Shown: positions 3,457 to 24,630 of the stretch, piece after piece | Position numbering within the stretch: position 1 is the stretch's first letter | Layout: every line of letters begins with the position of its first letter | IMG/VR virus record: IMGVR_UViG_3300037427_000498 | Coordinates: 1-25,028 of that record | Reading direction: 5' to 3' (one strand) | From: a virus | DNA length: 25,028 nt | Program-made: the position numbers and the translations under genes | Notes under the pieces: generated by a model | What the model saw: the letters and a program-made list of their open reading frames with translations, nothing else | Databases searched by the model: none | What the model was told of the DNA's origin: nothing

Positions 3457-4175
3457 TGGGTTGGAGAGTTAAAGCGTTACAACACGCTAAAGAAGAAGAT
3501 CCAAAAGAATCTGTTGGATTGTTGTTAAATATTAAAGGTAAAAATGTTTATTATCCTTGTCGTAATTTAGTTAGTGATTCATCCATTTATTCTCAACAAT
3601 GTTTTATTTTAGATCCTGAAGATTATGTAAAAGCAGAGGATTTAGGCCAAATAGTTAGTGTGATCCATTCACATCCAACAACTCCAGCAGTTGCTAGTGA
3701 AGCGGATAGAGTTAGTTGTGAAGCAGGTAGTTTACCTTGGCATATTATTAACCCTAAAACAGAACAATGGGGATATTACGAACCAACAGGATACAAGCCA
3801 CCGTTAAAGGGAAGATCATGGTGTTGGGGCGTTACTGATTGTTGGAGCCTAGTTAGAGATTTTTATGAAGAAGAGTTAGGAATTACGTTACGTGACTGGG
3901 AACGACCAATAACACCTGAAGAATTTTTAGAGAATCCTATATTTGAAGAGTGTACGAAAGCAGCAGGTTTTTATTTGTTAAAACCAGATGAAAAATTAGA
4001 GAACGGGGATGTTTTATTAATGTCAATCATGGGTAAGGGTTTAAACCATGCTGCAATTTTTTTAGATGGGGAAGTTTTACATCATTTAGCAGATCGTTTA
4101 AGTTGTCAGGAACCATATTCAGAATGGTTGTTAAAATGTACGGGAGGGAGGTATCGCTATGCTCAAGACAATTAA
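3456..4175 (+). CDS. K: Tail assembly protein, JAMM protease + NlpC/P60 fusion (lambda gpK-like)
   Basis: This 239-aa protein has the two-domain lambda gpK plan. The N-terminal JAB/MPN metalloprotease domain shows E18 and the zinc motif HSHPTTPAVASEAD (H71, H73, D84). The C-terminal NlpC/P60 cysteine peptidase domain shows the nucleophile in VTDCWSLVRDF (C129), the general-base histidine in LNHAAIF (H198), and H209/H210 as a possible third residue. gpK is needed for tail-tip assembly and may cut peptidoglycan or a tail protein. Both catalytic sets look intact. The start overlaps the L stop, and the end overlaps the I start by 17 bp. Confidence 0.92.
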   Translation: MGWRVKALQHAKEEDPKESVGLLLNIKGKNVYYPCRNLVSDSSIYSQQCFILDPEDYVKAEDLGQIVSVIHSHPTTPAVASEADRVSCEAGSLPWHIINPKTEQWGYYEPTGYKPPLKGRSWCWGVTDCWSLVRDFYEEELGITLRDWERPITPEEFLENPIFEECTKAAGFYLLKPDEKLENGDVLLMSIMGKGLNHAAIFLDGEVLHHLADRLSCQEPYSEWLLKCTGGRYRYAQDN

Positions 4176-21426: not shown

Positions 21427-21611
21427 AGTTCTTTTTTCCAAAGGATATTGGCTTTAGGATTATTATCCTTAGCCTTTTGATAAGCTTCTTCTTTTGAGTA
21501 TCCCCAATACTTCATATTGCGTCCTTGCATCTTTGGTTGACAGACCCAGAACACATGTAACTTTGCAGTAGGTGGAATACTATTAGAAGAAACAATAGAG
21601 TGATAAGTCAT
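21423..21611 (-). CDS. Hypothetical protein (62 aa)
   Basis: This small protein starts MTYHSIVSSNSIPPTAKLHV and ends in a helix-turn (YWGYSKEEAYQKAKDNNPKA). The GYSKEEAYQKAKD part resembles short helical hairpins in small phage regulators, but no function can be assigned. It overlaps both neighbours by four bases (ATGA type). Confidence 0.6.
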   Translation of the reverse strand: MTYHSIVSSNSIPPTAKLHVFWVCQPKMQGRNMKYWGYSKEEAYQKAKDNNPKANILWKKEL

Positions 21612-21847
21612 GCATTTAAGAAGGATCTAACCGTCTTGCCTTTAGCAAGGGATGGACATCCTTCTCCAATCTGGATTTCAATTGCCTTTTCTGGCTCTTT
21701 GGCCTTGAGAATGCGGATCGCACTTTCTTTACTGCCAGCAAGGATGTTGCCCCTACAAATCCTGTGATTAGTAAGGGTAAGTTCGTAGGGGTAAACTCTG
21801 GTGACAGAGTGGATCTGATCGTCATTTGCTGATTGTAATAAGCTCAT
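21608..21847 (-). CDS. Hypothetical protein (79 aa)
   Basis: The start chosen is ATG at 21847, one base after the stop of the preceding gene; the longer frame from 21904 would overlap that gene by 56 bp. The product begins MSLLQSANDDQIHSVTRVYP, followed by LTLTNHRICRGNILAGSKES, AIRILKAKEPEKAIEIQIGE and a basic end. The pattern of strands and one helix suggests a compact alpha/beta fold. No family is recognised. Confidence 0.6.
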   Translation of the reverse strand: MSLLQSANDDQIHSVTRVYPYELTLTNHRICRGNILAGSKESAIRILKAKEPEKAIEIQIGEGCPSLAKGKTVRSFLNA

Positions 21848-21848
21848 T

Positions 21849-22187
21849 TCAGAAGGGCATCTCTGATGAAGATTCTGCAATCTTTTGTGGGTTGATATTC
21901 CCAAAATAAGAACTGTAATTACCTTCTCTACCTTTACCGTTTAAGTAAATAACAGGTACTTCTTTTTCCTGCTTAGTTTCAAAGATCCATACCTTGCCTT
22001 CTTTATGCTTCATGTGATCGCTTTCTAATGCCATCAAATGATTAATAAGATCAGGAATTGAATCAACAGGAATACAAAGTGAAATTGTCTTTGGATTCTT
22101 ATCCTTATCATCAAAGTTGTTGTCACCAACAGACCACTTGATTGGATACTTGAAAGCAGGTTCGAAAGAGTTGTTAAACTGTGGCAT
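21849..22187 (-). CDS. Putative ssDNA-binding-like early protein with SSB-type C-terminal tip (112 aa)
   Basis: The first 90 residues are strand-rich (FKYPIKWSVGDNNFDDKDKN, KTISLCIPVDSIPDLINHLM, VWIFETKQEKEVPVIYLNGK) with a Gly/aromatic GREGNYSSYFGN loop. The C-terminus is SSSEMPF, similar to the acidic ...DIPF tip by which bacterial SSBs recruit partners. Position two genes after an annealing protein supports a DNA-metabolism role. I do not recognise an OB-fold with certainty, so SSB function is an inference. Confidence 0.5.
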   Translation of the reverse strand: MPQFNNSFEPAFKYPIKWSVGDNNFDDKDKNPKTISLCIPVDSIPDLINHLMALESDHMKHKEGKVWIFETKQEKEVPVIYLNGKGREGNYSSYFGNINPQKIAESSSEMPF

Positions 22188-22347
22188 TGTCTTTAAGAAT
22201 TGCGTAATGAGAAAGAATAATCTCGTTTGTTAGAGATGAAAGAGTGACCTGTGCATCAGATCCATAACGAAGTTGAACTTCGCGCTGCATTGCTTCAAAA
22301 GCTGCATTGTCTATTAAGGCGTTAAGCCTGACTTTTTCGCTAGGCAT
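22174..22347 (-). CDS. Putative ribbon-helix-helix small regulator (57 aa)
   Basis: This short gene runs from ATG at 22347 to TAA at 22174, overlapping the annealing-protein gene by 8 bp and the next gene by 14 bp. The product has a strand-like start (EKVRLNALIDN), a helix (AAFEAMQREVQLRYG) and a second helix (LSSLTNEIILSHYAIL), the size and order of an Arc/CopG-type RHH domain. It may regulate the operon or bind DNA during recombination. The tight overlap makes a real gene likely; the fold is inferred. Confidence 0.62.
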   Translation of the reverse strand: MPSEKVRLNALIDNAAFEAMQREVQLRYGSDAQVTLSSLTNEIILSHYAILKDNATV

Positions 22348-22972
22348 TGTTCAACTCCCGAAGTAATTCCTGAAGATGAATATCTGACATTTGTTTTAGT
22401 TTTGAACCTGATCCTGTGACTTTATAAAGCTTTGCCTTTTCTTCAACCCACTTTTTCGCCTCGTCATCTTTTTTCTTTGAATTAAGTAAAACCATGATTT
22501 TTTCAATGGTTTCATCTTTTGATGGTTTGGCAGGTTGCTTTAGTTGAGACTCAGGAACGATGTCGATCTTTTCATCAGAAATTTCTTCATCAGCCCAAAG
22601 TTCAAAACCTAGAGAGAAGAAAAACGCACTAGCAGCGCATAAGGATCTCCGATGAGAATCCGTAATTTCTCTTGCTCCAATAGCTTCGTATTTAATGGCC
22701 TGGTTCATGTTGTTCATAATCGAGAACGGAAACAAGCTGGTGCATGTTCCATCATCGTTTCTGAAATAACCCTGTAAGTAACCAGTCCCATTTGGAGCTT
22801 TCCAAACGGGATTGCCATCATCGGTTTCAAGGCAGTAAGTCCATTCAGGAGCTTTGTCATTTAATAGCTGAGCAATTTTTGCCCATGCCATGTACTTAGC
22901 TTTGAACTTGCCACCGCCTTTTTCGTGAACATCTTTTTTCTGGATTGTTCCAGATAAATTTGGTCTAGGCAT
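22340..22972 (-). CDS. Single-strand annealing protein, DUF1071/Sak-type
   Basis: In this 210-aa protein residues about 25-131 match the DUF1071 recombinase family: KYMAWAKIAQLLNDKAPEW, GTGYLQGYFRNDDG, LFPFSIMNNMNQAI, then REITDSHRRSLCAASAFFFS and LGFELWADEEI, the conserved 'R.L..A.A..GLG...YA.E.L' end. Such proteins anneal complementary ssDNA and act with an exonuclease in phage recombination, with a Red-beta-like role. The C-terminal 75 residues are Lys-rich and helical, likely for partner or SSB contact. It is the first gene of the minus-strand early operon. Confidence 0.82.
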   Translation of the reverse strand: MPRPNLSGTIQKKDVHEKGGGKFKAKYMAWAKIAQLLNDKAPEWTYCLETDDGNPVWKAPNGTGYLQGYFRNDDGTCTSLFPFSIMNNMNQAIKYEAIGAREITDSHRRSLCAASAFFFSLGFELWADEEISDEKIDIVPESQLKQPAKPSKDETIEKIMVLLNSKKKDDEAKKWVEEKAKLYKVTGSGSKLKQMSDIHLQELLRELNNA

Positions 22973-23068: not shown

Positions 23069-23137
23069 GACACTATGACGACACTATGTAGTGTCAATGT
23101 GACACCATATAGTGTCAATCTAACACCATTGAGTGTC
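23069..23137. promoter_or_regulatory. Tandem palindromic operator / iteron array, 21-bp period
   Basis: Three imperfect palindromes start at 23080 (GACACTATGTAGTGTC), 23101 (GACACCATATAGTGTC) and 23122 (AACACCATTGAGTGTC), with centres exactly 21 bp apart, about two DNA turns, so all face the same side of the helix. An extra half-site (GACACTATG) lies at 23069, 11 bp before the first. The array lies between the divergent annealing-protein promoter and the RHH-protein gene, the expected place for an autoregulatory operator; an iteron-like replication origin is the alternative. Confidence 0.75.
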
Positions 23138-23140
23138 ACC

Positions 23141-23848
23141 ATGACCCAACGTATAAACATCTATTTAGACGACGAATTAGCCCTTGAACTTAAAAAGAAC
23201 AAGCCTAAATTCTTGTCCCTGTCTGGGTATTGTTCTTTTGTTCTTGCTCAAGCACTTGACAAGGACGCTAGACTATCCGCGTACCATGTCGGTGCGGGAG
23301 AAAGGGAACTATCAAACGAAGCAGAGGTTCAAACTTCAAATCAAAGTTTGAAATCTACTTCTAATATTTCTTCTGTTTCTGATTCAGAAAAAGAAAAAAT
23401 TTCCCCACCTTTGAAACTTTTGGGAGATGGTGTCGGGAGGGAGTCTGAGGGAACCCCTAGGAAGAAACCACATGAAATTAATAGCATTGCAAAGAGAAAA
23501 AAAATAGCTCCTGAACAGCTAAGACCTTACTGGGATAAAATCGAATCCTTTTGGCGTGTTAAGCAAGGCAGCAAAAACTTACAAGCCTATACTTTACAAG
23601 TTACGGAACTAGAAAAAATACTTGAACATCTTGGAAAAGACGTTTTAGTTGATCAACTTGATGCTGCTTGTATGGCTGGAACTTGGTCACAAATTAATTT
23701 TAAGCGCACTCTTCAATTTATAGAAAGAGATAAAAAGTCAAAACCTGAACCTGAGATGAAGCATCCTGCTTATAAGGTTCACACTGCTAAAGATTTGGGT
23801 TACGACAACGGCCCTACAAAAAATCCTATTCTGAAGGATATTTTTTAA
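23141..23848 (+). CDS. RHH-domain DNA-binding protein, possible replication/regulatory protein (235 aa)
   Basis: The start chosen is ATG at 23141, giving MTQRINIYLDDELALELKKN, a ribbon-helix-helix N-terminus (strand RINIYLDD, helix ELALELKK, second helix SGYCSFVLAQAL). An earlier in-frame ATG at 23075 would add 22 residues made only of the operator repeats. After a Ser/Glu-rich linker (about residues 60-115) comes a helical domain (APEQLRPYWDKIESFWRVKQ, TWSQINFKRTLQFIER). This could be a replication-initiator or helicase-loader-like part; I do not recognise the family. It probably binds the adjacent palindromes. Its stop overlaps the methyltransferase ATG. Confidence 0.7.
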   Translation: MTQRINIYLDDELALELKKNKPKFLSLSGYCSFVLAQALDKDARLSAYHVGAGERELSNEAEVQTSNQSLKSTSNISSVSDSEKEKISPPLKLLGDGVGRESEGTPRKKPHEINSIAKRKKIAPEQLRPYWDKIESFWRVKQGSKNLQAYTLQVTELEKILEHLGKDVLVDQLDAACMAGTWSQINFKRTLQFIERDKKSKPEPEMKHPAYKVHTAKDLGYDNGPTKNPILKDIF

Positions 23849-24630
23849 TGAAATTAAATTATATTTACAACGAATGTTGTTTGTCTACACTAAAAAGAAT
23901 ACCTAGTAATTCTTTAACTATGACAATTACTTCTCCACCTTATAACATGAATTTAAGAATAAGAAACGGTCAATATTGTTCTAGGCAAATTAAAAAAGAA
24001 TTAACAACTAAGTACAAAGATTTTTCAGATAATCTTCCTATAAACGAATATAATTCATTTCACAGTAAAGTTCTTGGTGAATTATTAAGAGTTAGTCAAT
24101 TGATTTTCTATAACATTCAAATAGTTACAGGTAGTAAAAAATCTATTTTTAAAATGATAGGTGATTACTCAGATTATTTAAAAGAAATAATTGTATGGGA
24201 TAAAGGAAAAGCAGAGCCATCTATTGCTGAAGGAGTTATAAATAGAAGAACAGAATTGATTTTAATTTTCGATAAAGACAATTCTATTAGTAGAAAATTT
24301 AATAATGCTGTATTTAACAAAGGAACATTAGAAGATCTCTGGTTGATTCCAAGTGGTAAATCGCAATTAAAAGATCATAAAGCTATTTTCCCAGAAAAAT
24401 TAGTTTATAAAATACTTGCAAATTTTACAAAAGAAAAAGATATTATTTATGATCCTTTTATGGGGTCTGGATCAACTGCCGTAGTATGTAAAAAAATGAA
24501 TAGATTTTTTATAGGAAGTGAAGTAAATGAAGAATATATTGATATAGCAAAGCAAAGATTACATACAAATAAATTAGAGCAATTAAATCCTAACTATAAA
24601 AATTACATTCAATCTAATTTGCCATTTTAA
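23848..24630 (+). CDS. DNA methyltransferase, beta-type (N6-adenine or N4-cytosine), orphan
   Basis: In this 260-aa protein catalytic motif IV TSPPYNMN (residues 28-35) comes before the SAM-binding motif I DPFMGSGST (202-210), the beta-class order. The segment HKAIFPEKLV (177-186) and the end FFIGSEVNEEYIDIAKQRL are typical of this family. SPPY occurs in both N4-cytosine and N6-adenine enzymes, so the target base is open. No restriction endonuclease gene is adjacent. A role in protection from host restriction, or in marking phage DNA, is likely. It starts in a TAATG overlap with the RHH gene. Confidence 0.9.
   Translation: MKLNYIYNECCLSTLKRIPSNSLTMTITSPPYNMNLRIRNGQYCSRQIKKELTTKYKDFSDNLPINEYNSFHSKVLGELLRVSQLIFYNIQIVTGSKKSIFKMIGDYSDYLKEIIVWDKGKAEPSIAEGVINRRTELILIFDKDNSISRKFNNAVFNKGTLEDLWLIPSGKSQLKDHKAIFPEKLVYKILANFTKEKDIIYDPFMGSGSTAVVCKKMNRFFIGSEVNEEYIDIAKQRLHTNKLEQLNPNYKNYIQSNLPF

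Follow-up and report, generated by a model that had tools for sequence, protein, structure and literature searches.

What does a phased repeat array do when it lies directly before the gene of an RHH-domain protein in a phage, and do its bases also encode part of that protein? The question is raised by a 25,028-bp virus record, which was analysed over its whole length (hereafter the window). A sequence-only reading of the window had noted three palindromes at 21-bp spacing before the RHH gene and an upstream ATG from which they are read as a 7-residue repeat. In phage lambda, the iterons lie in the middle of the O gene and are translated (PMC7466680). RelB dimers bind hexads along one face of the helix (PMC2812701).

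Materials and methods

Relatives of the RHH gene were gathered by protein and by a conserved DNA element inside the gene. The structure model was built from 16 family sequences. Periodicity was tested in the 90 bp before the RHH start of 28 dereplicated loci, using dinucleotide shuffles and two control regions. Coordinates of replaced segments were counted from the start of the search pattern in the 44-bp element.

Results

The array is a series of half-sites one helical turn apart

The array and its two flanking genes are as follows.
22340-22972, minus strand: divergent gene for a Sak-type single-strand annealing protein (Pfam SSAP_Sak, 3.1e-8)
23069-23137, strand not assigned: array of seven half-sites, consensus GACACYA (GACAC/GTGTC boxes), directly 5' of the RHH gene
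Half-sites by strand: 23069 plus, 23080 plus, 23089 minus, 23101 plus, 23110 minus, 23122 plus (AACACCA), 23131 minus (GAGTGTC)
23141-23848, plus strand: RHH-domain protein of 235 aa, with a putative start codon (model and alignment with relatives)

The three palindromes (23080-23095, 23101-23116 and 23122-23137) are spaced at exactly 21 bp, and an extra half-site, GACACTA, stands ahead of them at 23069. When both arms are counted, the half-site centres lie at 23071, 23082, 23093, 23103, 23114, 23124 and 23135, in steps of 11, 11, 10, 11, 10 and 11 bp. The array can equivalently be described as three 16-bp palindromes with a 21-bp period plus one half-site. Because the centres are about 10.5 bp apart, the unit of the array is one helical turn. 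The motif GACACYATNNAGTGTC, with two or fewer mismatches, matched the window five times over both strands, every time inside the array, and shuffled windows gave a mean of 0.32 matches and a maximum of 3 (100 shuffles). A chain of half-sites at 10/11-bp steps scored 9, compared with a maximum of 6 in 100 shuffles. Palindrome self-complementarity alone was weak (17 of 21 arm pairs; shuffles of the 25 kb reached 19). The array is distinguished by repeated identity and spacing, not by self-complementarity.

Coordinates, motif count and shuffles thus confirm the three palindromes at 21-bp spacing and the additional half-site before the RHH gene. By the centre spacing, the basic unit is the half-site of 10.5 bp and not the 21-bp palindrome, as had been read. 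The half-site described as offset by 11 bp is present at 23069; it is no separate feature, simply the first member of the 10.5-bp series. Rfam gave no credible match to the array or to the 44-bp element, and a sigma70-type scan found no convincing promoter at the window array.

Locus context and a close relative

The array occupies the divergent control region of a replication/recombination module. The cultured-phage relatives of the annealing protein were all in Synechococcus and Prochlorococcus phages. Neighbouring genes are RecB-like exonuclease and RusA-like, both named from sequence pattern. GC skew gave no clear origin signal. The close relative L002 (89% protein identity) keeps the array and the gene; one base differs in half-site HS2 and one in HS7, and the rest of the seven half-sites are kept.

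A type II toxin-antitoxin system with an RHH antitoxin was considered and rejected, since no toxin-like gene was seen directly downstream in the window or L002. The immediate downstream neighbours are an N6/N4 methyltransferase in the window and a small protein and an exonuclease-like gene in L002.

Three further observations concern this region. The N6/N4 DNA methyltransferase gene (23848-24630) separates the initiator gene from the small gene that comes next. L002 is without it and has the two flanking genes adjacent, so the difference looks like a recent insertion or loss. On the minus strand of the window, two ORFs (21608-21904 and 21616-21825) overlap in different frames, and both are open in L002 (2471-2764 and 2476-2685). 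The short contigs L004 and L005 are close relatives in the annealing-protein gene. At the expected start of the initiator region (in L005, upstream of the annealing-protein gene) their sequence is a different one and may contain an ORF for an HNH-type homing endonuclease.

The protein looks like a lambda-O-like initiator with an RHH-like N-terminus

In the structure model, the protein is laid out as an RHH region (residues 1-43), a disordered linker (44-102) and a helical C-terminal domain (116-200). The window protein had no Pfam or PHROG match, and Foldseek searches with the model returned nothing significant. There was a weak profile match to pRN1 ORF56 (E 0.49), and one family member matched VAPB_antitox (E 0.0096). 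Because curated-model and fold searches gave no match, the RHH label is given on the basis of secondary structure and pattern. The model places helices at residues 11-20 and 27-42 (pLDDT 73-87) after a helix-free N-terminus, with the N-terminal strand unassigned in the monomer. With a strand followed by two helices, the latter seen in the model, the N-terminus appears RHH-like.

The C-terminal domain aligned with a set including the initiator of cyanophage KBS-S-2A (hhalign 98.4%, E 8.7e-15), and the relative L114 matched KBS-S-2A by tblastn (E 1e-4). The KBS-S-2A protein is classed as 'replication initiation O-like' (phrog_678, 1.2e-17). It has an HTH N-terminus, and its gene contains four intragenic 17-nt repeats spaced mostly at 24 bp. 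Other RHH members have other initiator-type C-terminal domains (phrog_270, 5e-10 to 4e-7), and their matches to replication-initiation PHROGs range from 5e-10 to 3e-3. A winged-helix/HTH N-terminus is absent from the window protein and nearly all relatives; only L055 and L079 carry an HTH with the 44-bp element. The interior of the window gene (23140-23848) holds no repeat array; the array sits upstream.

As the window protein alone matches no family, its initiator identity comes by homology through its relatives. On this basis, it resembles a lambda-O-like replication initiator that has an unusual domain for DNA binding. Bacterial genomes yielded no member of the protein family, which is therefore not a common prophage gene. 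The literature, incompletely covered, gave no description of RHH-type phage initiators.

Phased arrays with clade-specific motifs recur across the family

The gene is one of a large family found in uncultured phages. The half-site motif is clade-specific (GACACYA, TGATGCA, NATCNGTNCA, AGCACTACCGC, TTGCCGNAAT or TGGCAA), as in the following arrays.
L053 and L020: TGATGCA/TGCATCA array, 10-bp step
L067: NATCNGTNCA array, 10-bp step
L072: AGCACTACCGC array, 11-bp step
L059: TTGCCGNAAT array, 10-bp step

Self-similarity occurred at lags 10, 11, 20 and 30 across the 28 loci, the control regions being flat; the choice of lags went back to the window and the oceanic loci and preceded the collection of most of the 28. 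Mean self-identity was 0.359 at lag 10, 0.303 at lag 11 and 0.325 at lag 20, and about 0.25 at most other lags and in the controls. The test gave p<0.05 in 20 of 28 loci (Fisher 2e-31), missing this level in the other 8, and in 0/26 and 2/27 controls. Periodicity was absent from the winged-helix member L079 (p 0.91). An earlier test for a strict 6-mer chain in the oceanic loci, weak for several of them, was superseded by the lag test.

L114 was the only other member found with the window's version of the recognition strand (MTQRIN[IL]YL). It ranks first among 27 other loci for the window's half-site motif (p 0.004), a post hoc result from one case, with the motif score of L048 nearly equal. 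When spacing is set against codons in the relatives, as had been proposed, helical-turn phasing is kept with clade-specific motifs and the upstream frame is not.

The array and the RHH domain are replaced together

In 22 locus pairs, not all independent, the array and the RHH domain (about 200 bp) are replaced between otherwise similar flanks. L067 and L093, for example, share 84% identity over -2493 to -222 and 91% identity from -21 onwards; the stretch between these parts, -221 to -22, shows no similarity. Their RHH starts lie at -142 and -133, respectively, and the replaced piece consists of the array (about 75-80 bp) and RHH codons. Most of the 22 pairs have their left border 66-106 bp ahead of the RHH start and their right border between -8 and -33. 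C-terminal parts are also swapped, with borders at the other edge of the 44-bp element (+23 to +35). Each of two N-parts occurs with each of two C-parts, giving four combinations (L067; L073/L096; L072/L093; L102/L110/L127), with exchange borders at the two element edges.

Since the array and the RHH domain stay together through replacement, they would be cognate, and this is the strongest evidence for it. The comparative evidence that the two are a cognate pair is strong, and the earlier proposal of an RHH protein with its own binding array gains support from family-wide phasing and joint replacement alike.

A conserved 44-bp element marks the cassette border

The right border of the cassette coincides with one further feature.
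23256-23299, plus strand: DNA element TTGACA-N7-TA-N3-TAYCCGCGTACYRTGTCGGTGCGGGA, within the linker that joins the two protein domains

Conservation of the element at the DNA level extends over about 77 loci (the window and L052-L127), with one copy per locus. Positions beyond the search pattern are also invariant (T-21, T-8, A-7, T-3 and A-2). Variation at CGT/TGT/CAT affects codon positions 1-2, the wobble positions all being constant, and L065, as well as L047 and L058, translates the element in another frame. It is therefore conserved as DNA or RNA, and RLxAYxVGA was rejected as a conserved protein motif. A possible hairpin (CCGC..GCGG) lies within it. Cultured phages yielded two weak partial matches only. 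Bacterial and archaeal genomes yielded one match, probably by chance, which lends no support to a host-matching att site. L055 and L079 have the element, an HTH replication-protein domain as N-terminus and no upstream array.

Possible roles of the element are an exchange joint, an origin core, an internal promoter and an RNA signal. We suggest only tentatively, and with more doubt than belief, that it serves specifically as an exchange joint (or as an origin core common to all versions). Through such a joint, phages could exchange the 200-bp specificity cassette of array and RHH domain and, independently of it, the C-terminal domain; a single recombination step would then alter replication specificity.

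The upstream reading frame is probably a by-product of the array

The bases of the array are also crossed by an open frame.
23075-23140, plus strand: in-frame upstream extension crossing the array (MTTLCSVNVTPYSVNLTPLSVT), open in the window and L002

The in-frame ATG at 23075 and the degenerate 7-residue reading (TLCSVNV, TPYSVNL, TPLSVTM) do exist in the window. The repeat has seven residues because of the DNA period. One of the three frames of the window's 21-bp unit is stop-free, and it is the heptapeptide frame; the in-frame reading is therefore about a one-in-three coincidence.

In the oceanic relatives L006-L045, a dozen more distant loci, the upstream frame stops 8-12 codons before the RHH start and has no ATG. 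An exception is L020, a partial locus with the frame open for 26 codons. Between the window and L002, the extension has one synonymous and two non-synonymous codon changes, and the first 57 codons of the gene have three changes, all synonymous; both counts are small. The RHH start of the oceanic relatives aligns to 23141. The start was placed there because the upstream frame of these relatives is closed and the codon changes to L002 are not biased towards synonymous ones. On the same grounds, an alternate N-terminus from ATG 23075 was rejected as the main reading, and the suggestion that it is functional was not supported.

Arrays run into translated sequence in the L048 group and in the L052/L064 group, and the L048 group has an in-frame ATG where its array begins. 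Base sharing between array and coding sequence thus occurs in the family, yet not as a conserved trait. A dual role, with the array also serving as coding sequence from ATG 23075 so that a longer initiator with a heptad-repeat N-terminus is made, is very unlikely. The ATG and open frame kept in both the window and L002, the ATG of the L048 group and the translated 21-bp palindromes in the O-like initiator L025 (phrog_678, 1e-18) would fit it. They are outweighed by the closed oceanic frames, by the two non-synonymous changes among three and by a repeat unit that permits only one open frame. The translated 7-residue repeat is probably a by-product of the array.

Similar arrays were observed elsewhere. 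At 9490-9673 of L025, tandem 21-bp ACAC-GTGT palindromes are translated in frame (SVTATPP) in the O-like ORF, which is followed by a DnaC-like loader. Palindromes of the same kind are translated in frame (SVETTPG) at 1168-2136 of L023; its ORF has no family match, and L023 was therefore left out as an initiator. In L026, an unrelated phage, a 21-bp array of ACAC-N6-GTGT palindromes with TATAAT-like cores (3881-3936) adjoins a portal-like gene and may be a promoter/operator set.

Discussion

We favour, with moderate confidence, a reading in which the RHH protein is a lambda-O-like initiator and the array its cognate site, and in which binding both represses the initiator's own gene and nucleates the origin. 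The parts of this reading differ in strength. Binding of the array by the RHH protein is a well-supported prediction, autoregulation of the initiator gene is likely from the position of the array, and a part in the origin is suggested by analogy with lambda O and its ori. Dimers of the MetJ/CopG/Arc class place their strand pair in the operator's major groove. Here, adjacent RHH dimers would line up along a single face of the DNA, each turn of the helix offering one half-site, by likeness to RelB and omega on their repeats (PMC2812701, PMC9499535). The bound dimers would cover the DNA up to the start codon and so repress the initiator gene. The same complex would serve as origin iterons, where the C-terminal domain would recruit replication proteins, much as lambda O acts on iterons inside its own gene (PMC7466680). 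The guess of the sequence-only reading, an operator, an iteron set or both, was a good one, given a C-terminal domain shared with O-like replication initiators. A point against our reading is that lambda-type iterons are usually larger, intragenic and beside an AT-rich stretch.

The RHH protein could instead act as an autoregulator only: it would repress its own operon, and perhaps also the gene of the divergent annealing protein, and replication would begin at another site. RHH proteins are classical autoregulators, and many members have an array that adjoins or overlaps the start codon. A promoter-like TTGMCN-N15-18-TANNNT, a pattern chosen post hoc, precedes the start in 10/24 loci (0.24 expected), and frequently ends where the array begins; the window has none. 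This account has to explain an O-like C-terminal domain and the winged-helix relative KBS-S-2A, whose initiator gene itself contains the repeats, a less plausible place for an operator. We regard it as possible but rather unlikely. That the array is a partition (centromere-like) site for an RHH ParB-type protein, comparable to omega/parS of pSM19035, is highly improbable. RHH ParB proteins do bind long tandem repeat arrays (PMC9499535), but the neighbouring ORFs include no apparent ParA gene, the match of the C-terminal domain is to replication initiators, and the pitch is 10-11 bp, not 7. Chance or a functionless tandem duplication can practically be dismissed. Slippage can generate short repeats, and nothing else speaks for it; phased arrays of differing sequence occupy the same place across the family, and the array is replaced jointly with the RHH domain.

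In kinship, the locus is a variant of lambda O/ori and of RHH operators, not a wholly new type. It resembles lambda O and ori-lambda, with their Stx-phage relatives, in having N-terminal DNA-binding and C-terminal domains and repeated sites tied to the initiator gene. It differs in having an RHH domain where lambda O has a winged helix, in an array that lies upstream and touches the start codon where lambda iterons are intragenic, in a half-site pitch of 10-11 bp, and in an origin activity that we infer. With the RHH autoregulators Arc, CopG, RelB and omega it shares an N-terminal strand followed by two helices, and side-by-side half-sites before its own gene. Unlike them, it has a long C-terminal initiator domain. 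Their hexads or heptads measure 6-7 bp, and the Arc operator has two half-sites; the window family has five to seven half-sites at a 10-11 bp pitch. Iteron-type replicons also carry direct or inverted repeats about two helical turns apart beside the initiator gene, but most relatives here have a unit of a single helical turn, and the initiator differs in type from RepA/TrfA. In lambdoid modular exchange, functionally linked DNA and protein parts move jointly between short conserved joints. Linked DNA and protein parts are swapped between conserved joints here too, although the joint is a 44-bp element within one gene and the unit is about 200 bp (the array and about 40 codons).

These findings suggest that environmental phages include a large group, apparently not described so far, with initiators that each combine an RHH domain with a phased site array of its own. 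Peptide repeats read in frame from 21-bp units can be by-products of a binding array. Natural swaps tie each array to its domain, and the dozens of matched protein-site pairs provide material for an RHH recognition code, as well as a testable model for how phages change their replication specificity.
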